Of a stretch of DNA of 64,000 nt, positions 32,920-44,260 are shown in pieces. Origin of the DNA: Peptoniphilus catoniae (GTDB taxonomy: Bacteria > Bacillota > Clostridia > Tissierellales > Peptoniphilaceae); the NCBI RefSeq assembly GCF_901447155.2, contig NZ_LR588413.1, forward strand, positions 372,001 through 436,000, given 5' to 3'. Position numbers and translations under genes: made by a program. Under the pieces are notes generated by a model. That model had not been told where the DNA came from and ran no database searches. It saw only the letters and a list, made by a program, of their open reading frames with translations. Numbering within the stretch: position 1 is the stretch's first letter; the number at the start of each line of letters is the position of its first letter.

Positions 32920-33801
32920 CTACTCTTTCTTAATTAGTGGCTTCTTTTTACCTAAGATGCCTATATTGTTATAAACTATAAATACTATTACTATAAGGGC
33001 TGTAATCAGCTTTAAATCATTTGGATTTAGACCTGCATAGATAGCAAGCCCTGATATTATCCTGTAGGCTATTGCTCCTATAATAGCTCTTGTTGAAAGC
33101 TTAAGTCTTCTGTTATTTCTCATAAAGGTATCGCCTATTATTATTGATGCCAAAGCTGTAACTATCATTGTGGTTCCCATTTGAGAATCTACAAAGCCCT
33201 GATGCTGCGCCATTAATGATCCGCTAAGGGACACCAGGCCATTAGAAAGCATAAAGCCTATCATAATATATAAATCTGGGTTTTTGCCTAGAGACCTTAC
33301 TAGGGATTCATTATCTCCTGTTACTATAAGAAGGTAACCTTGCTCAGTTTTAAAGAAGTAGTCAATAAGAAATTTGACTATCAGTACAATAATTATTAAT
33401 ACCAGCATTTTTGGTAAATAGCTAAAGTTTGAAAATATGTTTTCGTAGTCAAAAAGAGGTACGTTGCTTTTACCTGTAATTCTTAAATTTATAGAATACA
33501 GCATAGTCATAGTAAGGATACCGGCAAGTAAGGCTGCAATTTTTAATCTTTTGTAAAGAAAATAAGTTACAAAACCTGCAGCAAGTCCTCCTGCGAAGCT
33601 TAAAAGCATAGCAAGAATGGGATTCACTCCTTTTAAGGTAAAGGCTGCAAAGATAAAGGCTCCTAAAGGAAAGGTTCCTTCTACCGATAAATCTGCAAGA
33701 TCCAATACCTTATATGTTAATACTACTCCTATAGCAAGTAATGAAAATATCAATCCGACTTCTAGTGATGATTGTAATACTGATATTAACCCTTCCAGCA
33801 T
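32920..33801 (-). CDS. ABC transporter permease (BPD_transp_2 / TrpY-type)
   Basis: 293 aa, about eight to nine hydrophobic helices. The N terminus YKVLDLADLSVEGTFPLGA (about 31-49) and SNGLVSLSGSLMAQHQGF (about 190-207) are typical of permeases paired with PF04392-type binding proteins, and related to LivH. It forms the channel of the importer encoded by this operon. It sits between the binding-protein gene (9 nt) and the ATPase gene (8 nt). Confidence 0.92.
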   Translation of the reverse strand: MLEGLISVLQSSLEVGLIFSLLAIGVVLTYKVLDLADLSVEGTFPLGAFIFAAFTLKGVNPILAMLLSFAGGLAAGFVTYFLYKRLKIAALLAGILTMTMLYSINLRITGKSNVPLFDYENIFSNFSYLPKMLVLIIIVLIVKFLIDYFFKTEQGYLLIVTGDNESLVRSLGKNPDLYIMIGFMLSNGLVSLSGSLMAQHQGFVDSQMGTTMIVTALASIIIGDTFMRNNRRLKLSTRAIIGAIAYRIISGLAIYAGLNPNDLKLITALIVIVFIVYNNIGILGKKKPLIKKE

Positions 33802-33810
33802 TTTTCCCTC

Positions 33811-34836
33811 CTAATTTACTTCTTCTGCGCCTTCAAATACTTTTGAGTTTTCATCAAGTCCCAAGGCATCTGCAGTAGTTTTATTAACTATTCTTTTAGT
33901 GTCTGTAGAAAATACTACAGGTATATCAGCAGGAGATTTGCCCTTAATAATTTCATCGGCAATTTCCGCTGCACTTCTTCCAAGCTTTACATAATCTATT
34001 CCATCTGATAATAAAAGTCCATTTTCAACAGGACCGGACTCTCCTGCAAAGGAAGGTATTTTTGCTTCCTTTAGCCTTTGAGCTATAATACTTGTTGCAG
34101 ATGATGCAAGGTTGTCCTGAATCCCTACATAACAATCTATTTTAGTAACAAGAGAGCTCATGGCAAGTGATACGTCATTTACATTTGCAACTCCGGCTTT
34201 AACAAGCTCAAGACCATGTTTATTTGCAACCTCTTCCAATTCCTTAACCTGTACTTCCGAATTTGCTTCCCCTGTTGAATAAAGTACTCCAAGCTTTTTA
34301 CAATCAGGAAAGATTTCAAGAAAGTTTTCAAGCTGAGTTTCAATGGAAAAGTAGTCGGAAACCCCTGTAACATTTCTTCCCGGGTGCTCATTTGATTCCA
34401 CAAGATTTGCTGATACAGGATCTGTTACAGCATTAAATATTACCGGAATATTTTCAACTGAATTTCTAGCTTCTTGAGCTGCAGGTGTTGCTATAGCATA
34501 AATTAAATCGACTCCACTACCTTCAAGCTTTTTAACTGCAGTTCCTATAAGAGTTATATCTCCATTTACATTTACAGTTTCCTCTTCAACCTCATATCCC
34601 ATATCCTTAAGTCCTTCTATAAATCCTTCCCTTGATCTGTCAAGGGCTATGTGTTGTGCAAACTGTACTATACCGACTTTAATTTTTTTGCCTTCTTGTG
34701 AACTTTTTTCACCCTCATTTGTTTCCTGCACTGTCTCTTTTGTATTATTTACCTTTGAGTCAGCTGTTTCTTCAGCTTTTTTGCAACCCACAACTAACAG
34801 GCTCATTGCTAAAATTAATAATATTATCTTTTTCAT
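33811..34836 (-). CDS. ABC transporter substrate-binding lipoprotein (TrpX-type)
   Basis: 341 aa. A lipoprotein signal peptide ends in LLVVGC, with Cys at about 18. An acidic/Ser linker and a two-lobed binding fold follow (KVGIVQFAQHIALDRSREGF, IPVIFNAVTDPV, VTGVSDYFS). This is the PF04392 family, predicted in Firmicutes to serve tryptophan or other aromatic amino acids. It is first in the three-gene ABC operon, behind a T-box whose candidate specifier is UAC (Tyr). A paralogue about 45% identical by eye is encoded just upstream as an orphan gene. Confidence 0.93.
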   Translation of the reverse strand: MKKIILLILAMSLLVVGCKKAEETADSKVNNTKETVQETNEGEKSSQEGKKIKVGIVQFAQHIALDRSREGFIEGLKDMGYEVEEETVNVNGDITLIGTAVKKLEGSGVDLIYAIATPAAQEARNSVENIPVIFNAVTDPVSANLVESNEHPGRNVTGVSDYFSIETQLENFLEIFPDCKKLGVLYSTGEANSEVQVKELEEVANKHGLELVKAGVANVNDVSLAMSSLVTKIDCYVGIQDNLASSATSIIAQRLKEAKIPSFAGESGPVENGLLLSDGIDYVKLGRSAAEIADEIIKGKSPADIPVVFSTDTKRIVNKTTADALGLDENSKVFEGAEEVN

Positions 34837-34854
34837 ATTTCCTCCTTTAACTTA

Positions 34855-35095
34855 AAAAGTCTCTCACTCCTTGGAATCCCAAGGGGCGAAAGACTTAACT
34901 TGCACGGTACCACCCTAATTAACATCTAAAGATGCTCTCATAAATTTAACGCATTTAACGTATCTATCTACTGTTAATTCAACAGATATGGCCCAAAAGT
35001 GTATTAAAAAATAATATTTATGGCATCTCACCCTCAGCCACTCTCTGTGAAAAATCTTATTTTTCCTTCTCTTTTGTATAACCAATATTAAATTA
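34855..35095 (-). promoter_or_regulatory. T-box riboswitch of the ABC operon, candidate Tyr specifier
   Basis: The T-box TGGTACCGTG is at 34903-34912 (minus strand). It is followed by a terminator with outer stem AGTCTTTCGC/GTGAGAGACT and inner CCTTGG/CCAAGG, then T5. Upstream is a stem I with apical GUGGC...GCCAU. A UAC triplet at 35001-35003 followed by A and the lower stem CUUUU is the candidate specifier. The RNA class is secure; the codon is inferred. Confidence 0.85.
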
Positions 35096-35101
35096 ATCAG
35101 T

Positions 35102-35130
35102 ATTATATTATGGTATCGGTTTAAAGTCAA
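35102..35130 (-). promoter_or_regulatory. Promoter of the T-box-ABC operon
   Basis: Minus-strand TTGACT (35125-35130), 17-bp spacer, TATAAT (35102-35107). It starts just after the stop of the orphan binding-protein gene. Confidence 0.82.
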
Positions 35131-35151
35131 GTAGAAACATTGAAATTTTTA

Positions 35152-36171
35152 TTATTTAATTATATCGGCATCCTTAAACATTTCATTGTTTAAATCTACA
35201 CCTAAAGCTTCAGCTGTTTTACCATTTACAAGCTTGTCATTTACCTCATTATATTCAACAGGAATAGTTTTTACGTCTTCTCCGTTTAAAATTTTTAAGG
35301 CAAGTCTTGCCGCTTGTGCTCCCTGTTCCTTATAGTTAACTCCCTCACTCATTAAAAGTCCTTCCTTTACCTGTCCTTCTTCTGAAGATAGGGAAGGTAT
35401 TTTATTCTTTAATAAATTTTCTGAAACTATAGGAGCCGCATTTGCCACCATATTATCCGTTATGGCAAAAAGTGCATCTATCTTTCCTGAAAGAACCGCT
35501 ATAGCTTGAGGAATATCGTTAACATTGGTTATACCGGTTTTTTCAAGTTTTAAACCTCTTTCTTCAAGAGCCTTTCCAAGTTCTTCAACCTGTACCTGAG
35601 AGTTTTGTTCTGATGTGCTATATAAAACTCCAAAAGTTTTTACATCCGGATAAACTTTTAAAAATTCATCTATTTGTTGTCCCGGATCTATATAGTCTGA
35701 TACTCCTGTAATATTTCCCCCTGGATTTTCAAATGATTCAACTAAACCTGCTCCAACAGGATCTGTTACTGCTGAAAAGACTACAGGTATGTCGTGAATT
35801 ACATTTTTTGCTCCCTGAGCTGATGGTGTAGAAATTGCATATACCAAATCAACGTGATCTCCCTCAAGTTTTTGAGCAAGGGTTGTTATAAGATTCATAT
35901 CCCCGTTAGCTGAAACTTCTTCAATTTCAACGTCAAGTCCTTGTTTTTCAAGTTCTTCCACAAAACCTTCCTTAGCAGCATCAAGCGAAACGTGGTCAAT
36001 GTATTTTATTATACCTATTTTTTTCTTTTCTCCCTGATCCTTTGATTCCTCTGACACTTGAGTATTTGCTGAGTCGGCGTTTTCTTTAGTATTCTCACTT
36101 ACTTCCTTGCTGTTTTTACCGCAAGCTGTTAACAAACCAATCATAACTAACAAGACTAATATTTTTTTCAT
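35152..36171 (-). CDS. Orphan TrpX-type substrate-binding lipoprotein
   Basis: 339 aa from the ATG at 36169-36171, which has GAGGAAG just before it and begins a clear lipoprotein signal (MKKILVLLVMIGLLTAC, Cys at 17). An open frame extends 40 codons further upstream into the leader RNA and is not used. The binding fold parallels the next gene: IGIIKYIDHVSLDAAKEGF, IPVVFSAVTDPV, NITGVSDYID. It has its own promoter and T-box, but no permease or ATPase gene of its own before the next promoter. It probably shares the downstream permease and ATPase with a different ligand preference. Confidence 0.92.
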   Translation of the reverse strand: MKKILVLLVMIGLLTACGKNSKEVSENTKENADSANTQVSEESKDQGEKKKIGIIKYIDHVSLDAAKEGFVEELEKQGLDVEIEEVSANGDMNLITTLAQKLEGDHVDLVYAISTPSAQGAKNVIHDIPVVFSAVTDPVGAGLVESFENPGGNITGVSDYIDPGQQIDEFLKVYPDVKTFGVLYSTSEQNSQVQVEELGKALEERGLKLEKTGITNVNDIPQAIAVLSGKIDALFAITDNMVANAAPIVSENLLKNKIPSLSSEEGQVKEGLLMSEGVNYKEQGAQAARLALKILNGEDVKTIPVEYNEVNDKLVNGKTAEALGVDLNNEMFKDADIIK

Positions 36172-36244
36172 TTCTTCCTCCATAAAATTATTTGTTAGAA
36201 ATAGGGTTATCTTTATAAAAGACATTAGGTAAAAGTTTTTTATA

Positions 36245-36480
36245 ATAAAAAAACCTCCGTCACATAGGACGAAGGATATTCGCGGTACCACCTAATTTTA
36301 TAATCAAAGATTACCTCATCAGAGTCTAACAACTCATAGCCTATGATAACGGAGACTTCCGAGACAACCTACTATTATTCAGCCGTCCTACTGTAGAGTG
36401 AATATTACATATTTCTCTTAGTGCCGGTTTTCACCAAGCCCGACTCTCTGTAAAAAAGATCCATATCTTTCTCTCTGTCT
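36245..36480 (-). promoter_or_regulatory. T-box riboswitch of the orphan binding-protein gene, candidate Phe specifier
   Basis: The T-box TGGTACCGCG is at 36281-36290 (minus strand), followed by an 8-bp terminator stem CCTTCGTC/GACGGAGG and T7. Stem I has an apical GUCGG...CCGGC with GGUG in the loop. UUC at 36400-36402, followed by A and lower-stem CUCU, aligns with the UAC of the neighbouring T-box and is the candidate specifier. Confidence 0.85.
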
Positions 36481-36493
36481 TAGCATTTCCTAC

Positions 36494-36522
36494 ATTCTAA
36501 TTCTTTAAAATAACAATGTCAA
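36494..36522 (-). promoter_or_regulatory. Promoter of the T-box-orphan binding-protein transcript
   Basis: Minus-strand TTGACA (36517-36522), 17-bp spacer, TAGAAT (36494-36499). Confidence 0.82.
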
Positions 36523-36531
36523 GTCTTTTTT

Positions 36532-37068
36532 TTATTTTTTTAACCACCAAGCATTAAATTCCATATGAGGAGGGTCCTTATAGGTCTTAAAATAATAGCC
36601 GGGAGTAAGTCCCACTTCCAAAGCTATGTCGGCACATTTCCTGAAAAATTCCATATCACCGTAAGGATCACTGCCTGCCTTTGCTATATCAAAGGCATGC
36701 CTTTTTGTGTGATTGCTGTTTCTAGTCCAGGTTACTTTATTTCCCTCTTCAGTTCTACCCTGAGCGTATAATTTTTCCTGCCTTTCTTGTGTTCTGTAGG
36801 TTTCCGTTACAATAACACTAAGACCTTCCTCTTCACACCTTTCTAAAAATTTATAGGCAAGCTTTTTAGTATTGGGGCTTAACTCCTCAAGATCAGATAT
36901 AATTTCTCCTTGAAAGTAATTGTCTCTATAACTTCCCCTGTCAAAAATAAAAGAATAAACACCTATTCTTGGAAAAATAATAAAAACTATAAAAAGAGTT
37001 AAGATAAGCCTTACAAGTTTAAAAATAAAAGTTCTTTTTTTCTTAAAGCCTCTATTTGCACCTTTCAT
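36532..37068 (-). CDS. M15-family D-Ala-D-Ala/L-Ala-D-Glu carboxypeptidase-like protein, membrane anchored
   Basis: 178 aa. One N-terminal membrane segment (about 15-34) precedes a compact M15 metallopeptidase domain. The zinc ligands are in SNHTKRHAFDIA (HxxxxxxD pattern) and PPHMEFN (final His). The TETYRTQERQEKLYAQGR segment is typical of phage-endolysin-like M15C enzymes. It should act on peptidoglycan stem peptides outside the membrane. It lies between the promoter of the T-box SBP gene and a decayed transporter fragment. No phage genes surround it, so it is more likely a host wall enzyme or VanY-like protein than part of a prophage. Confidence 0.88.
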   Translation of the reverse strand: MKGANRGFKKKRTFIFKLVRLILTLFIVFIIFPRIGVYSFIFDRGSYRDNYFQGEIISDLEELSPNTKKLAYKFLERCEEEGLSVIVTETYRTQERQEKLYAQGRTEEGNKVTWTRNSNHTKRHAFDIAKAGSDPYGDMEFFRKCADIALEVGLTPGYYFKTYKDPPHMEFNAWWLKK

Positions 37069-37143
37069 AATATCACCATTTTTATTATACTTTGCAAATC
37101 TTAAAAGGCATTTAAAATATTATTAAAATAAAGTTAAAATTAT

Positions 37144-37584
37144 CTATAAAATTTTTATGCTTATAAAAAGAGTGAGCATAGCAAAGTAGAAGCAGAATAA
37201 ATGAGCTGCTAATGCAGGAACCTTTAATTCTACTAATGCAGGAGCGGCAATAGTTGCTGTAATCAAGTATGAAGGAATAGATGGAAGTCCCATTCCAAGA
37301 ATTATACAAGTAACCATTGTAAATAACAAGGTTAAGAAAATACTTTGTTGACCAGTTCTAATAATAGTAGATGCAACATTAAGTGCAAAACCCGTTTGAG
37401 CAGCTACTCCTACTATAATGCCTACACAGGCAAAGGCAATTGCAACACTGATAGTGGACTTGGCACCTGCTGCAAAAGCTTCAGCCAAATCTTTTAAGCT
37501 CATACGACTGAAACGAAACCTTTTCACAGCTTTCTTTTTATATATGGTAATAGAGTTAATAAATTGCAATATTTTATTGTCCAA
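37144..37584 (-). pseudogene. Fragment of a TRAP transporter fused/large permease
   Basis: An open frame of 146 codons. From about codon 27 the translation follows the TRAP DctM-like (TAXI-type fused) permease core: SLKDLAEAFAAGAKSTISVA, GIIVGVAAQTG, MVTCIILGMGLPSIPSYL and APALVELKVPALAAHLFCFYFAML. The full permease is over 600 aa; here the 5' part is absent and the homology breaks after FYFAML, where ITPPVA should follow. No TAXI binding-protein gene is near. It is best read as a degraded remnant, the only clear gene ruin in the window. Confidence 0.75.
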
Positions 37585-37743
37585 TTTTTATATCAGTTTA
37601 TTTTTCTCATATAATAATATGCTCCTTAATATCTCTTTAATTTACTTCTTTCATTAAATTTTCAAATCAGCTCCCGCTTTTATTTTTTATTCCTTTAGAT
37701 TATATACTTTTAGGGTATCAATTTATTATAGATGGAGGTTATT

Positions 37744-39042
37744 ATGGACTCAAAATTAATTAAAGAAAAAATTAAATCTTATATTAAAAATGGAGAAACT
37801 CCCAGATCTGATTTTACAGTAGGCGGAGAATTTGAAAACTTTATTATAAGTAATAATACTTTTAAAACAATTTCCTATTATGGAGAAAATGGAGTTGAAG
37901 AAAGTATTAGAGAGCTTTGTAGCTTGTATAAGGCACAGCCTTTAATGGATGATGATTATATGCTTGGCTTTTTTGCAGAAAATTTTTCAATTTCAACTGA
38001 ACCCGGTGCACAATTTGAAATAAGTATTAAATCTCAAGGCACTATAGCTGAACTTGAAAGAATTTATGTAGATTTTATGAAAAATGCTGTGGAAATTTTT
38101 AAAAAGAAAAATCAAAGTATAATTTCACTTGGCTATCATCCTGTGACTAAAATTGATGAAATTACCCTTTTGCCTAAAAAAAGATACTCTTATATGTTTG
38201 AGCACTTTAAGAAAAGAGGATCTATGGCACATAACATGATGAAGGGCAGCGGATCTGTACAAGTTGCCATAGACTTTGAAAATGAAAGGGATTTTATCAG
38301 AAAGTTCCATTTAGGCTCAGCTCTGTCTCCTATTTTTTACTCTATGTTTGACAATGCACCTATTTTTGAAGGCGAGGTTTATAATAAACATAACCTTAGA
38401 CAAAAAATCTGGGAGAACACTGATAGCGAAAGGTCAGGACTTTTGAAAATCGGCTTTGACAAGGACTTTTCCTATGATAAATATGCGAACTTTATTTTAA
38501 ATACTACTCCGATATTTATAGAAAGAGATGGAAAACTGTCCGATGCTCAAGGTAAAAAATTTTATGAAATATTTAATGAAGATGATAGCGATGAGCTCAT
38601 TTTCCATGCTCTTTCCATTGTCTTTCCGGATCTTAGAGTCAAGACTTACTTGGAATTCAGAATGTTTGATGCAGTACCCTACAAATTAAATTTTGCAGCT
38701 GTCGCATTAATTAAAGGGCTTTTCTACAGTGAGGAAAATCTTCTTAAATTGGAAAGTTTATATAAGGACAGTAGCTACGAATTAGCTATGAGAGCTAAGG
38801 CTGATAGTGAAGAAACCGGGCTTTATGCCAACTACTTAGGAAGGTCTATTTTAGATCATGGAAAAGAATTAATAAATCTTGCATCATCAGGTCTTGATTC
38901 AAAAGAAAAATCATATCTTGATCCTATTAAAGAGCTTATGGATGAAGGACTTACTCCTAAAGATATATTTTACAAAAATAAGGACAAAAAAGATTTAAAA
39001 GAACTTTTAAAGGCTGACATATTGGAGATGAAAAATGTATAA
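37744..39042 (+). CDS. Glutamate-cysteine ligase, GCS2 (plant/proteobacterial EgtA-like) type
   Basis: 432 aa from the ATG at 37744, which follows GGAGG by 6 nt; an upstream in-frame ATG at 37732 overlaps that site. Visible family features are TVGGEFENF near the N terminus (substrate-binding Glu region), FSISTEPGAQFEIS (about 84-97) and HNMMKGSGSVQVAIDF (about 163-178), matching the MMRxTASxQVN block of GCS2 ligases. The product would be gamma-glutamylcysteine. The next gene, an ATP-grasp ligase, overlaps it by 8 nt. This pairing suggests synthesis of glutathione or of a related gamma-Glu-Cys conjugate; the acceptor is not known. Confidence 0.85.
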   Translation: MDSKLIKEKIKSYIKNGETPRSDFTVGGEFENFIISNNTFKTISYYGENGVEESIRELCSLYKAQPLMDDDYMLGFFAENFSISTEPGAQFEISIKSQGTIAELERIYVDFMKNAVEIFKKKNQSIISLGYHPVTKIDEITLLPKKRYSYMFEHFKKRGSMAHNMMKGSGSVQVAIDFENERDFIRKFHLGSALSPIFYSMFDNAPIFEGEVYNKHNLRQKIWENTDSERSGLLKIGFDKDFSYDKYANFILNTTPIFIERDGKLSDAQGKKFYEIFNEDDSDELIFHALSIVFPDLRVKTYLEFRMFDAVPYKLNFAAVALIKGLFYSEENLLKLESLYKDSSYELAMRAKADSEETGLYANYLGRSILDHGKELINLASSGLDSKEKSYLDPIKELMDEGLTPKDIFYKNKDKKDLKELLKADILEMKNV

Positions 39043-40357
39043 CGATAAATACGTTAAAGATTACTTTGAAATTGTTAATAAAAATCCTAAAAAATATTAT
39101 AATGACTACGAGAATATACAAAAAAGAGTGGAAAAATCCTTTAAAGATAATCAGGGGCACTTAGTTAAATATCCTTATCAAGGACTTTTCTATAGCAAAG
39201 AGGAGGTTGAAAACTTTAAATCTATTTCAAAGACTCTTATGACTATATCGGAAAAAGTCGTAAAGGAATATATTAGAAATCCGGAATATAGAAAGCTTTT
39301 TAATTTTGATAAGAAGCTTGAAGAGCTTATTTTAATAGATCCCGGATACAAAACCCCTATACCTATTTGCCGATATGATATGTTTTATAAGAACCCTAAG
39401 GATTTTATGTTTGTGGAATTTAATACAGACGGTACTTCCGCCATGAATGAAGAGCTCCTTGTAGGTAAAGAAATTGAAAGCTCCCTTGCAATGGAGACCT
39501 TTAAAAATAATTATAAGGTTAAAAATATAAATACTTTTCTTCCATGGGTAGATGAGTCGCTTAATATCTATAGGACTGTTTCAGATAAAAAGCCTAATAT
39601 CGCCATAGTTGATATTTTAAATGTGGGTACTACTGCGGACTTTTTAATTTTTAGGGACTATTATAGAGAAAAAGGTTATAACTGTGAAATTTGCGATCCT
39701 AGAGATTTAACCTATAAAAATGGAAAACTTATGTGGAAGGATTACTCTATAGATTTAGTTTATAGAAGATTTGTTGCCTTGGAATTTATGAAATACTATG
39801 ATGAGGCCAAGGACTTTATAGCTGCCTATAAAGATAAAGCTTTTGTTATGTTAGGCTCTTTTAGAACTCACCTTCTTCACACAAAGCTTACCTTTTATAT
39901 TTTAAGGCACAGGGATACCCTTGCCTTTCTAAATGAAGAAGAAAGGACCTTTATAGAAAAGCATATACCCTTTACCGACTACCTTAGTGAGGATGCACTT
40001 AAAGAGTTAAAAAATAATAAGGACGATTATATTATAAAGCCCTTTGACGGATATCAAACAAGTGGAGTTTATACAGGTGTCTCTCTAAGTCAAAATGAAT
40101 GGGAGAAAGTTTTAGATAAAGCTGTTAAGGAAGAATATATTTACCAAAAGTTTTATAAGGCTTCCCCACTTAAGTTTATAAATTTCTCCAGTCCTAATAA
40201 GGTGAGTCTGGAGGATTATCAGGGAGTTGTAGGACTTTATATCTATAATGGAAACTTTGTAGCTCCTTATACAAGAATAGGTCAAGACTCAATTATTGGC
40301 GGCAAACATAATTATCTTGTTGCTCCAAATATTTTTGTTGAAGAAAAATCCAAATAA
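39035..40357 (+). CDS. ATP-grasp ligase of the glutathionylspermidine synthase fold
   Basis: 440 aa. Sequence blocks FVEFNTDGTSAMNEE (about 129-143), IVDILNVGTTADFLI, DLVYRRFVALEF, KPFDGYQTSGVYTG (ATP-grasp loop, about 330-343) and the C-terminal TRIGQDSIIGG recall the circularly permuted ATP-grasp proteins of the glutathionylspermidine synthase/PF03738-like group. There is no amidase domain. The gene overlaps the glutamate-cysteine ligase gene by 8 nt. It probably ligates a second amino compound to gamma-Glu-Cys. Glycine (giving glutathione) is one option; a polyamine or another amino acid is equally open from sequence alone. Confidence 0.75.
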   Translation: MYNDKYVKDYFEIVNKNPKKYYNDYENIQKRVEKSFKDNQGHLVKYPYQGLFYSKEEVENFKSISKTLMTISEKVVKEYIRNPEYRKLFNFDKKLEELILIDPGYKTPIPICRYDMFYKNPKDFMFVEFNTDGTSAMNEELLVGKEIESSLAMETFKNNYKVKNINTFLPWVDESLNIYRTVSDKKPNIAIVDILNVGTTADFLIFRDYYREKGYNCEICDPRDLTYKNGKLMWKDYSIDLVYRRFVALEFMKYYDEAKDFIAAYKDKAFVMLGSFRTHLLHTKLTFYILRHRDTLAFLNEEERTFIEKHIPFTDYLSEDALKELKNNKDDYIIKPFDGYQTSGVYTGVSLSQNEWEKVLDKAVKEEYIYQKFYKASPLKFINFSSPNKVSLEDYQGVVGLYIYNGNFVAPYTRIGQDSIIGGKHNYLVAPNIFVEEKSK

Positions 40358-40368
40358 TCGGTGATTAT

Positions 40369-40845
40369 ATGGATACTTTTTTAAATGATATAGGTGATGT
40401 TTTTCCACCTGCTTTGGCAGTTGTTTTTATATCCATGCTACCTTTTTTTGAACTTAGATTGGCAATACCTTTAGGGATTTCCTTAGACTTAAAGGTTTAT
40501 GAAGCCTTTATCTATGCCTATATAGGTTCAATGATTCCCGCCTTCTTTATAATCTACTTTATAAGGAAGGTATTTAATTATCTGAAGGGCTTTAAAGTTC
40601 TTAAAAGCACAATTAAAAGATTAATAATAAAATCAAATTTAAAATATGAAAATCTAATGAAGTACAAAATGCTTGGACTATATTTCTTTGTTGCCATACC
40701 TCTTCCCGGGACAGGAGTTTGGTCAGCATCTCTTATATCAGATGTGGCTAACCTGGATAAAAAATTATCTCTGCTTGCTATAGCTCTTGGTAATTTAACC
40801 TCAGGTCTAATAGTATTAAGTCTAAGTCATCTTGCTTTTAACTAA
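40369..40845 (+). CDS. Small multidrug-export-type membrane protein
   Basis: 158 aa with about four hydrophobic segments. PFFELRLAIPLGI (about 25-37) and AIPLPGTGVWSASLI (about 108-122) are hallmarks of the PF06695 'putative small multi-drug export protein' family. The family name is historical; the function is not established. It begins 11 nt after the ATP-grasp ligase stop, behind only a weak GGTGA ribosome site, so it is probably the third gene of the thiol-ligase operon and could be linked to transport of its product or substrate. Confidence 0.75.
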   Translation: MDTFLNDIGDVFPPALAVVFISMLPFFELRLAIPLGISLDLKVYEAFIYAYIGSMIPAFFIIYFIRKVFNYLKGFKVLKSTIKRLIIKSNLKYENLMKYKMLGLYFFVAIPLPGTGVWSASLISDVANLDKKLSLLAIALGNLTSGLIVLSLSHLAFN

Positions 40846-40872
40846 ACAAGCCCCAATTATTCGGGCTTGCCC
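40846..40872 (+). terminator. Possible terminator after the thiol-ligase operon
   Basis: A 7-bp GC-rich stem (CAAGCCC 40847-40853 with GGGCTTG 40863-40869) lies just after the stop; the T tract is poor, so this is tentative. Confidence 0.45.
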
Positions 40873-40999
40873 TTTATGAAAGAATATAAAAATTTTATAA
40901 ACTGGTGTTATTTATACGGGCTAAGTAACATCAGCTTTTATATTAAATATTTATAGATTCATTAAGATCTAATTAAGCTAAAAGTAGGTCTTAATATAA

Positions 41000-41042
41000 A
41001 AACTGACCTTAAGACTTAAAATCAGTCTAAGGTCAGTTTATT
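41000..41042 (-). terminator. Bidirectional terminator after the flavodiiron gene
   Basis: A 15-bp interrupted stem (41001-41016 with 41024-41039) has T-rich sequence on both sides and lies between convergent operons. Confidence 0.75.
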
Positions 41043-41072
41043 TAATAATTTTAAAAGAATTAAAGAGTGAGA

Positions 41073-42314
41073 TTATTTATTTAATTTTTCCTTTAATTCC
41101 TTTATATTTTTCATTGATTCAAGAATGGAATCAACAAGGCTGTTCATATCGTTGGCATTAGCCTTGTTAAGAGAGGTATTAATTGTTACTCTGTCATTTA
41201 GCACGTCGCAAAGCTTAAGCTCGTCATCAATAATTTCTTCCATCTTGTCGCCTACTGTACAAGCCCAAGTTCCATTTTCTATAATTGCTATGGTTCTGTT
41301 TTGTACATTAAGAGCTGCCATATCCATTATAAAGTTCTTCATAACAGGATATATATTAAGGTTATAGGTTACAGATGCAAGAACTAAGTGTGAATACTTA
41401 AATACATCTGAAATCAGCTCAGATACATCTGTTCTTGACACGTCATGTACTACTACATTTGTCATGCCCTTATCACAAAGTCTTGATGCAAGAGTTTGTG
41501 CAGCATGCTCAGTGTTGCCGTACATGGAAGCATAAGCAATTACAACACCTGTTTCTTCCGGTTCATACTTTGACCACTTATCATATTTATCAAGTAAGTA
41601 AGCAAAATCGTTTCTCCAAACCGGTCCATGAAGAGGACAGATATATTTAATATCCAAGGTTGCTGCTTTCTTTAGTACATCTTGTACAAAAGGACCGTAT
41701 TTTCCTACTATATTCGAATAATATCTTCTTGCGTCATCAAGCCAATCTCTATCAAAGTTAACTTCGTCATTAAACAGCTTTCCGTCTAAAGCTCCGAAGC
41801 TACCGAAAGCATCGGCTGTGAAAAGAACTCCGTTTGTAACATCAAAACTCATTAAAACTTCAGGCCAGTGAACCATAGGTGCTTCTACAAAAGCAAAGGT
41901 ATGTTTACCAAAGCTTATTGTGTCTCCTTCTTTAACTATTATTTGCTTATGTTCATCTACCTTTGAAAATCCGATTTGTCTCATAATTTCAAAGCCTTGT
42001 TCACTTGAAACTATTGTTACATTAGGATATCTTATGCAAATTTCTTCCAATGATCCGCCGTGATCCGGTTCCATATGGTGTACTACTACATAATCAAGGT
42101 CCTTATCTCCGATAACGTCTTTTATATTTTTTATAAGATCACGTGCTGCTGACCAATCTACTGTATCAAATAAAACTGTTTTTTCATCTTCAAGTAGATA
42201 TGAATTGTAGGATACTCCTCTTGAAATTGGAAATATATTTTCAAAAAGTGCTAATCTGTGATCATTTGCCCCAACCCAATAGAGGTCTTCAGTAACTTTT
42301 CTAACAGTATACAT
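41073..42314 (-). CDS. Flavodiiron protein (A-type flavoprotein, FprA/ROO family)
   Basis: 413 aa. The N-terminal metallo-beta-lactamase-like domain has the diiron ligands HHMEPDHGG (HxExDH, about 82-90), a His region around APMVHWPEV, an Asp in TADAFGS and CPLHGPVW. The C-terminal flavodoxin domain starts about residue 257 (VVIAYASMYGNTEHAAQ, FMN phosphate loop). Such enzymes reduce O2 to water or NO to N2O in anaerobes, taking electrons from rubredoxin. The gene lies 14 nt downstream of an acyl-CoA dehydrogenase fusion that ends in a rubredoxin domain, a natural electron donor. Confidence 0.95.
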   Translation of the reverse strand: MYTVRKVTEDLYWVGANDHRLALFENIFPISRGVSYNSYLLEDEKTVLFDTVDWSAARDLIKNIKDVIGDKDLDYVVVHHMEPDHGGSLEEICIRYPNVTIVSSEQGFEIMRQIGFSKVDEHKQIIVKEGDTISFGKHTFAFVEAPMVHWPEVLMSFDVTNGVLFTADAFGSFGALDGKLFNDEVNFDRDWLDDARRYYSNIVGKYGPFVQDVLKKAATLDIKYICPLHGPVWRNDFAYLLDKYDKWSKYEPEETGVVIAYASMYGNTEHAAQTLASRLCDKGMTNVVVHDVSRTDVSELISDVFKYSHLVLASVTYNLNIYPVMKNFIMDMAALNVQNRTIAIIENGTWACTVGDKMEEIIDDELKLCDVLNDRVTINTSLNKANANDMNSLVDSILESMKNIKELKEKLNK

Positions 42315-42328
42315 AATTTGCCCCCCTG

Positions 42329-44260
42329 TTATTTTCTATCAGCAGGAAAATCTGCTTTAATAAAGTTTTTCTTTTCTTCTTGACATTCAGGACATGCCCA
42401 ATCATCCGGTAATTTTTCAAATGTTGTTCCCGGATCAATTTCACCTTCAGGATCTCCGTAGTTAGGATCATATTCGTAACCACAACCCGGACATACATAT
42501 ACTCCATAATTAGGTGCAAGTTTTCTAGGCTTAGATCTTCTAACCTTCTTCATTGGAGGTGCAGGTTTCTTTTCACCTTTTCCTAAAGCTTCTGTCAATA
42601 AAGGCATAATTTCATGTATGTCGCCTACTATACCATAGTCGGCATTTTTAAATATATGTGCTCCTGCATTAGTATTAATTGCAACTATAGTTGATGCGTC
42701 TTTTATACCCTTTAAGTGTTGAGATGCGCCGGAAATTCCAAGGGCGATATATAAATTGCCTTTAAATTTTTGTCCTGACATACCTACATATCTTTCAAGA
42801 GGAACTAATTTCATATTTTCAGCTACAGGTCTTGAAGAGCCAAGTGCTGCTCCTGCTGCATGGGCAAGTGCCTTTGCAGCCTTCATATTTTCAGCTGATC
42901 CTATACCCTTTCCAACTGATACTACTCTTTCAGCTTCTGATATAGGTGTATCAATAGGAATACCTACAGAAAAGTCATATCCGTCCTTTTTTAGATTTTC
43001 TACCAATTCATTTACAGCTTCTTGAGGGCTGTCGGCTTTTATAATATGTCTTTTTCTAACGCCTGTAATGGGGCCTTCCTTTTTGCCAGGTGCTGCTCCT
43101 CTTTTCTTTTCTTTAGGCATCTTTCCGATAATGTTTGCTGCTATAACTACGTTTTGAATTTCGTTGGTTCCTTCATAAATAGTAGTAATTTTTGCATCAC
43201 GATAGAATCTTTCTACTTCCATGCCCTTTAGGTATCCGTTACCACCGTGAATTTGAAGTGCTTCATTTACAACTTCAAGGGCAACTTGTGATGCGTACTT
43301 TTTAGCCATGGCAGATTCCATACCATAGTTTTCATGGTTTTGTTTCATTTCAGCTGCTGAATATACTAAAAATCTTGCAGCTCTGATTTTAGTAGCCATG
43401 TCAGCAAGTTTAAAAGCTACCGCTTGTTGTTGTGCTATAGGTTTTCCGAATTGTACTCTTTCTTTAGCATATTTTAAAGCTACTTCATAAGCTCCTTGAG
43501 CTATACCAAGCGCTTGTGAAGCTATACCTATACGACCTCCGTCAAGAGTTTGAAGTGCGATTCTAAATCCTTGACCTTCTTGTCCAAGTAGGTTCTCCTT
43601 TGGAACCTTTACATTGTTAAAAATAAGTTCAGCAGTGCTTGAAGATCTTATACCTAGTTTGTCATAGGGATCTCCAAAGGTAAATCCCTCCCAGCCTCTT
43701 TCAACTATAAATGCTGAAATACCGTGGCTTCCTATTCCGGGAGTTGTTACTGCAAATACTACATAAAAATCAGCTTTAGGAGCATTGGTAATAAAAATTT
43801 TATTTCCGTTTAATATATAGTAATCTCCGTCTAGTTCAGCTACTGTCTTTGTACCGCTGGCATCACTACCTGCATCAGGTTCCGTTAAACCGAAAGCACC
43901 TATTGCCTTACCTTGAGCTAGGGGAACTAGATATTTTTTCTTTTGTTCTTCTGTTCCGAAGGCTTCAATAGGGTATGAACCTAAAGATGTATGAGCTGAT
44001 AGAATTACTCCTGTACCGCCATCTACTCTTGAAAGTTCTTCTACGGCAATTGCATATGAAAGTACATCTTTTCCTGCTCCACCATATTCTTTAGGATAGG
44101 GTAATCCCATCCAACCGTTTTCTCCCATTTTTTTAACTATTTCATCTGGAAACTCACTGTTTTGATCTAACTGAAAAGCAATTGGCTTTACTTCTGTTTC
44201 AGCAAAGTCTCTGACAGCCTTACGTAGATCTTCATGTTCTTGACTTGTTTTGAATAACAT
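42329..44260 (-). CDS. Acyl-CoA dehydrogenase-EtfA (FAD domain)-rubredoxin fusion protein
   Basis: 643 aa, three parts. Residues about 1-385 are a full acyl-CoA dehydrogenase, with [11 protein letters not shown], the [14 protein letters not shown] block and the catalytic Glu in YEGTNEIQ. Residues about 400-570 match the C-terminal FAD-binding domain of electron-transfer flavoprotein alpha ([48 protein letters not shown]) without its N-terminal domain. Residues about 585-643 are a rubredoxin with CPGCGY and CPEC. Electrons could pass from an acyl-CoA through two flavins to the iron centre. The flavodiiron gene 14 nt downstream is the likely partner. A strong GAGGAGG precedes the ATG. Confidence 0.95.

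Follow-up and report, generated by a model that had tools for sequence, protein, structure and literature searches.

A stretch of 64,000 nucleotides from the Peptoniphilus catoniae contig NZ_LR588413.1 (positions 372,001 to 436,000 of the forward strand; hereafter, the window), part of a genome of 1.73 Mb in 15 contigs, carries a gene for a putative glutamate-cysteine ligase of the GCS2 type that overlaps by 8 nt the gene for a ligase of the ATP-grasp superfamily; 11 nt beyond the latter lies a gene for a small membrane protein, and all three are on the plus strand. Comparison with other genomes established that the GCS2 and ATP-grasp genes form a real unit, widespread among relatives of the organism. 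The pair probably represents a self-contained two-step pathway to gamma-Glu-Cys-X, parallel to gshA-gshB and GshF. What we observed were homology, conserved catalytic residues, gene order, co-occurrence, one fusion, no N-terminal domain of GshB in 78 genomes and no over-cut-off GshF in any pair genome of the two samples, and from these we infer the reactions, the order of the substrates and the identity of X. In the proposed scheme, GCS2 would couple the gamma-carboxyl group of glutamate to cysteine, and the ATP-grasp enzyme would phosphorylate the C-terminal carboxylate of gamma-Glu-Cys and then couple the activated dipeptide to an amine, yielding a low-molecular-weight thiol of the form gamma-Glu-Cys-X. 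X would most likely be a small amino acid, with glycine (i.e., glutathione) as the leading single candidate.

The relatives sample comprised 121 genomes, i.e., the organism's own and those of relatives, most of them belonging to a single family and order. The ATP-grasp protein was found in 64 of these genomes, GCS2 in 65 and both in 62; two genomes (G057 and G067) had the ATP-grasp protein without GCS2, and three (G055, G060 and G107) had GCS2 without the ATP-grasp protein. This linkage is far above chance (Fisher p ~4e-28, with shared ancestry uncorrected). The two genes were adjacent in 56 of the 64 ATP-grasp-bearing genomes, 55 of them by gene calls and one (G007) from search coordinates, its GCS2 gene having been skipped by our scripts, which called open reading frames (ORFs) by a greedy longest-ORF rule. 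At every one of the 55 called loci the genes lay on the same strand with GCS2 first; they overlapped at 33 and lay within 50 nt of each other at 53, the largest gap being 201 nt. In G026 and G035 the ATP-grasp gene was at a contig end and GCS2 on a different contig.

A second sample of 398 genomes represented the phylum, with a match of at least 380 bits counted as a strong ATP-grasp match; weak matches to proteins of 822-880 aa in three genomes (G209, G266 and G427) were excluded from the member counts. Strong matches were obtained in 26 genomes with 17 family codes, and all 26 also had a GCS2 match. When 24 of these 26 loci were fetched, 23 proved to be adjacent pairs and the remaining one (L144) a fusion, in which a single ORF of 864 aa has GCS2 at its N-terminal end and ATP-grasp at its C-terminal end. 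Pairwise distances of the two proteins were correlated across 78 loci with r 0.85, a value that includes shared species history, whereas none of 999 shuffles of the labels exceeded 0.13, and FastTree trees of the two proteins had 43 of 76 splits in common. A single scan of genome contigs returned one relative. Beyond the pair, no gene was constant at the loci compared. Control by a riboswitch was rejected, as neither the 29 loci scanned nor positions 33000-43000 of the window (together 30 of 80 pair loci) had an Rfam match that leads into the pair.

The two ligases

A preliminary description of the window had proposed a three-gene operon that makes and moves a gamma-Glu-Cys thiol. Its account of a GCS2-type ligase gene running by 8 nt into the ATP-grasp gene agrees with both the ORF coordinates and the match of the first protein to PF04107 (E 3.7e-25; 89.3 bits, over the gathering cut-off of 21). 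The same protein matched TIGR01436, the model for plant glutamate-cysteine ligase (GCL), with 232.8 bits over positions 8-409, and TIGR03444 (EgtA) with 85.0 bits. The similarity to plant-type GCL and EgtA is full-length, and both models were matched by all 50 members of an alignment (A2) made from 50 of the 62 GCS2 proteins after removal by hand of near-duplicates and some others; however, the window protein falls below both equivalog cut-offs (463.15 for TIGR01436). Its match to the plant GCL structures 6gmo/2gwc had an E value of ~2.5e-47, and of the 27 family-invariant positions in the 50-member alignment, 26 were identical in plant GCL 2gwc, the exception being D296, which is Glu in the plant enzyme. 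Because of the homology to plant GCL and these invariant residues, the natural reading of the protein, judged from sequence, is that of a glutamate-cysteine ligase. The same 26 invariant residues, together with the lack of a constant third gene beside the pair, render improbable a scheme with another order or other substrates, for example one in which the ATP-grasp enzyme would make a dipeptide to be capped by GCS2 with gamma-Glu, or GCS2 would use an amine other than cysteine, as for a small peptide natural product. Related GCS2 genes at loci L152 and L153 ran into an overlapping downstream gene for an EgtC-like class II amidotransferase (Pfam and NCBIfam matches for L153), which gives this ligase family another kind of partner.

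The second protein matched PF14403 (CP_ATPgrasp_2) with 23.8 bits and PF03738 (GSP_synth) with 17.4 bits, below the respective cut-offs of 32 and 29.3. Some of its relatives scored higher: in a set of ten chosen by hand, partly for likely high scores or unusual length, five were over the cut-off for PF03738, four for PF14403, three for PF04174 and seven for either PF03738 or PF14403. At E <= 0.01, PF03738 was matched by 51 of the 53 members of alignment A1, which was made from 64 length-filtered ATP-grasp proteins by removing near-duplicates and some others by hand. Pfam gave no match to an amidase domain in the 440 aa of the window protein, and NCBIfam gave no match to it at E 0.01. Among the 50 members of a broader alignment (A4; 29 rows of A1, 20 of the 23 non-fused phylum proteins and a protein from plasmid pSRC2), NCBIfam matches were, DUF896 aside, weak only, the commonest being PRK12458 glutathione synthetase (20 of 50; best E 7.6e-6). 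A C-terminal DUF896 domain was seen in three of the 53 members of A1; the Pfam matches were in L054:7472-9037 and L103:7581-9122, and L057:7965-9320 has a similar tail of 75 residues.

Profile searches pointed the same way. Against solved structures, the profile matched Cp1B (E 2.4e-7), 3n6x (5e-4) and YgiC (6.5e-3), and a broader profile repeated them, while alignment of profiles by hhalign to the E. coli proteins GspS, YgiC and YjfC gave a probability of 87 (E 3.9e-6) and, in a second run, 95 (E 5e-8). At the superfamily level the protein is thereby assigned to the GspS-like, circularly permuted ATP-grasp group, the relation being one of remote homology for the window protein; to this extent the placement made in the preliminary description, i.e., a GspS-like protein without an amidase domain, was borne out. 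A ligase acting on wall peptides was rejected, the ATP-grasp gene being tied to GCS2 and once fused with it.

Eleven residues were invariant in 53 of 53 members (R113, D115, E128, N130, D132, Y243, R244, R245, K284, K335 and R414). The first five align with R316, D318, E330, N332 and D334 of GspS, which form the R-x-D / E-x-N-x-D motif that we take to be catalytic in that enzyme. Three further GspS residues, E391, E392 and D610, presumably contact spermidine. The column at E391 (position 196) was acidic in 44 of 53 members, with Asn in the window protein; the column at E392 (197) was not acidic as a rule and that at D610 (426) was acidic in 27 of 53, the window protein having V and N, respectively. 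The R-x-D / E-x-N residues of the family also fit the pattern R139, D141, E163 and N165 of Cp1B, residues that are reported to be needed for activity and to be conserved with human glutathione synthetases (PMC12568646).

Candidate products of the pair

The known routes to glutathione were looked for in the same genomes. Over-cut-off matches to GshF (TIGR01435) occurred in 4 of the 121 relatives and 7 of the 398 phylum genomes, always without the ATP-grasp gene; a near-miss in the phylum sample (G473; 616 bits against a cut-off of 656) was also in a genome without it. This non-overlap is compatible with chance (P ~0.05 in the 121-genome sample), the cases being few. The window genome had no match to TIGR01435, and in some pair genomes, e.g. 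G096, there were matches below the cut-off to the ATP-grasp half of the model. None of 78 genomes, that of the window among them, had the N-terminal domain of GshB (PF02951), which was detected in 3 of 14 controls (E. coli, Caulobacter and Synechococcus). Membership of the second enzyme in GshF was rejected on the lack of a TIGR01435 match in the window genome and of any over-cut-off GshF in pair genomes, and membership in GshB on the PF02951 result.

Glutathione itself as the product is an outcome that we would put a little short of an even chance. X would then be glycine, and the ATP-grasp enzyme a non-orthologous glutathione synthetase, independent of GshB, GshF and the eukaryotic enzyme. 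The genes stand in the order of gshA-gshB, and the fusion has its domains arranged as in GshF; over-cut-off GshF never accompanied the pair and the GshB domain was missing from all 78 genomes scanned; the catalytic motif pattern is held in common with Cp1B; and weak matches to PRK12458 glutathione synthetase recurred in two-fifths of the members examined. The markers of glutathione use, however, did not follow the pair. Glutaredoxin was present in 59 of 61 genomes and hence uninformative. The absence of an over-cut-off glutathione reductase from pair genomes does not exclude glutathione, because other disulfide reductases could act.

Several observations weigh against a dedicated thiol pathway or against glutathione as its product. 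Glutathione reductase (TIGR01421) was over cut-off in only 3 of 61 genomes (G005, G010 and G012), all of them pair-free, and strong glutathione peroxidase matches (>100 bits) were, if anything, rarer with the pair than without it (19 of 62 pair genomes versus 29 of 59 others, p 0.04), there being no peroxidase match in the window genome. The two ligase genes were far apart in four genomes (G084, G093, G106 and G110). In the phylum sample, 13 of 39 genomes with a GCS2 match had no strong ATP-grasp match. Full-length but weaker GCS2 genes (232-331 bits) adjoined other genes in six genomes (G340, G455, G350, G444, G172 and G211), and in the first two GCS2 overlapped the next gene, a class II amidotransferase resembling EgtC; in G481 and G422 a strong GCS2 lay near a contig end, and the matches in G390, G126, G403, G410 and G485 were partial or weak. 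Because homologues without an ATP-grasp partner adjoin other genes, the GCS2 family also serves other pathways. Finally, because the window ATP-grasp protein scored under all the curated cut-offs seen, and because Pfam names the superfamily only, the reaction of the second enzyme is one that we infer. The three genomes with glutathione reductase also had strong glutathione peroxidase, with neither the pair nor an over-cut-off GshF, and are perhaps those of glutathione scavengers.

A thiol other than glutathione is possible if rather doubtful; X would then be an amine or an amino acid different from glycine, and the product would act in metal handling or be exported. The nearest E. coli relatives of the second enzyme, GspS, YgiC and YjfC, are annotated as spermidine ligases, and the column at the presumed spermidine contact E391 is largely acidic (Asn in the window protein); on the other hand, the E392 and D610 columns are not conserved as acidic. 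Pair genomes lacked an over-cut-off glutathione reductase, as this alternative would have it. Genes for transporters also recurred near the pair. A CDF cation efflux gene was immediately beside it at 11 loci in 6 genera, upstream at 6 and downstream at 5 (L063 has the ATP-grasp gene alone); MntP was upstream of the pair in L037, an ABC exporter upstream of the fused gene in L144, and a MATE transporter inside the operon on pSRC2. Other recurrent same-strand neighbours within 50 nt were Cys-tRNA(Pro) deacylase YbaK, at 7 loci in 3 genera, and, at three loci each, an AEC permease, an ABC ATPase and PF06695, and five recurrent neighbour clusters (c18, c59, c62, c72 and c128) had no evident transport or thiol role. 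These exporters are, however, diverse, absent beside many pairs and common genes anyway, and the neighbours as a whole give hints of a metal or export link, or of operon drift. The fuller proposal, to which the recurrent CDF, MntP and MATE genes give rise, is that an uncharacterized ATP-grasp family present in at least 17 families of the phylum and on a Selenomonas plasmid makes a widespread, undescribed non-glutathione gamma-Glu-Cys-X thiol that buffers or exports metal ions; in our judgment this is unlikely.

The two-step pathway to gamma-Glu-Cys-X, with X left open, remains our preferred interpretation. To that extent the earlier claim that the operon makes a gamma-Glu-Cys thiol holds as a probable one, given a conserved and once-fused unit, the plant-type GCL residues and the missing GshB domain.

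The membrane gene, the surrounding DNA and mobile copies

The features of the locus are collected in Table 1. The GCS2 ORF has two candidate ATG starts, at 37732 and 37744, of which the latter is favored because of the GGAGG 5 nt before it, a motif that the alternative ATG overlaps. By the same consensus scan that located the hairpin beyond the membrane gene, four terminator-like hairpins were counted in positions 37000-41200, where shuffled sequences gave 2.1 on average.

Table 1. Features in and around the ligase pair (positions in the window)
Feature	Positions	Strand	Basis or remark
T-box leader	34879..35088	-	precedes one of two ABC_sub_bind lipoprotein genes
T-box leader	36262..36490	-	precedes the other ABC_sub_bind lipoprotein gene
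TRAP fused permease piece, 146 aa	37144..37584	-	covers 372-485 of the 615-position TIGR02123 model
Ribosome-binding-site-like GGAGG	37734..37738	+	5 nt before ATG 37744; direct sequence reading
GCS2-type glutamate-cysteine ligase (putative), 432 aa	37744..39042	+	PF04107, TIGR01436, plant GCL PDB matches, invariant residues
ATP-grasp ligase (putative) without amidase domain, 440 aa	39035..40357	+	remote Pfam/profile homology, invariant motif residues
PF06695 small membrane protein, 158 aa	40369..40845	+	PF06695 E 4.4e-34
Terminator-like hairpin 3' of membrane gene	40902..40934	+	consensus scan only
Flavodiiron protein	41073..42314	-
Acyl-CoA dehydrogenase-ETF-rubredoxin ORF	42329..44260	-	acyl-CoA dehydrogenase, ETF-alpha FAD domain, C-terminal rubredoxin; 14 nt from flavodiiron gene

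The third gene is, as had been described, of the PF06695 type (118.1 bits against a cut-off of 30.7), and its spacing suggests that in the window it is co-transcribed with the pair, although it lies outside the conserved unit. A complete three-gene operon for synthesis and transport is nevertheless very improbable. In its favor are the 11-nt spacing in the window and the same order in relatives of the same genus: the membrane gene lay within 50 nt downstream of the pair in the window and in two members of its genus, i.e., at three loci, and a further genus mate had it at 95 nt. Across the relatives' loci searched with this gene, however, it was near the pair at six, namely the window, the three genus mates and two loci of the same family, L036 and L040, these two with an intervening ORF (the phylum loci were left out of this search). 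Homologues of PF06695 were about as frequent with the pair as without it (28 of 62 pair genomes versus 30 of 59 others, p 0.59). Because PF06695 neither co-occurs with the pair nor is conserved beside it, we treat the membrane gene as a genus-level neighbor, and the three-gene transport operon was rejected on the same ground. The suggestion that this gene moves the thiol is therefore not supported, and of the supposed three-gene operon the first two genes stood as a conserved unit, the third being a neighbor only in or near the genus of the window. A survey of the surroundings of the ATP-grasp gene, as envisaged in the preliminary description, found its adjacency to GCS2 to be conserved, but not that to PF06695.

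That description had also placed O2- or NO-reducing genes next door. Their domain content is real, but they are on the opposite strand and outside the ligase operon. Judged from its domains, the dehydrogenase ORF could plausibly work with the flavodiiron protein to pass electrons straight from acyl-CoA to O2 or NO. The TRAP permease piece on the other side of the pair is likely to be a gene remnant.

When 72,556 plasmids were searched by tblastn with the ATP-grasp protein, 29 records matched. The top match was to pSRC2 of Selenomonas ruminantium TAM6421 (36% identity over 421 residues), in which GCS2 (SELR_RS14550), a MATE efflux transporter (SELR_RS14545) and the ATP-grasp protein (SELR_RS14540, annotated "hypothetical protein") follow one another with spacings of 11 and 6 nt. 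The nearest neighbor of both pSRC2 proteins in the two trees was the fused L144, which suggests lateral transfer. The remaining nine plasmid matches listed had 18-26% identity, and for the three inspected (in Moraxella, Pantoea and Sinorhizobium) no GCS2 gene was listed nearby in the PLSDB gene tables, which are incomplete. A pattern-based scan of viral contigs revealed no relative and the ATP-grasp protein had no PHROG match, and a phage origin was rejected on these results. The window GCS2 protein did match phrog_28942 (E 2.9e-37), a phage family with no function assigned, so that ligases of the GCS2 type are apparently encoded by some phages.

Relation to known pathways and significance

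The pair resembles gshA-gshB in being a pair of ligases with the glutamate-cysteine ligase first and the ATP-grasp ligase second, but its first member is plant-type GCS2 rather than GshA and its second is not GshB. With GshF it shares, in the L144 fusion, a GCL domain at the N-terminal end and an ATP-grasp domain at the C-terminal end, and the genomes with over-cut-off GshF and those with the pair were disjoint in both samples; however, both domains of the pair come from other families. The likeness to GspS, YgiC and YjfC (PF03738) extends to remote profile homology over 333-341 columns and to the R-x-D and E-x-N-x-D motif, whereas the window protein is set apart by an identity of 17%, its PF03738 score below cut-off, its lack of an amidase domain and its genetic tie to GCS2. 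YgiC and YjfC are also short, at 386 and 387 aa (annotated CDS lengths). Cp1B, an enzyme of the fungal E-64 pathway (PDB 9cjn), was the best match among solved structures and has the same catalytic residue pattern, although it is a fungal enzyme and the best stretch was limited to profile positions 282-369; it joins epoxysuccinate to amino acids (PMC12568646). There is a precedent for the argument in methanogens, where glutathione synthesis by GshA-like and GshB-like enzymes was inferred from the synteny of the two ligase genes; unlike the pair described here, those genes relate to the two halves of GshF (PMC7278568).

A search of open-licence PubMed Central found no paper on the GCS2/ATP-grasp pair. 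To our knowledge, many anaerobic Bacillota have no assigned low-molecular-weight thiol. Reviews list glutathione, glutathione amide, bacillithiol, mycothiol, gamma-glutamylcysteine and CoA as thiols and count Clostridium acetobutylicum as a glutathione user. In the relatives sample, 62 of 121 genomes would have one dedicated two-gene route, the second enzyme of which bears a superfamily name only. If its product is glutathione, current annotation overlooks glutathione synthesis in many anaerobes; otherwise a new thiol awaits discovery.

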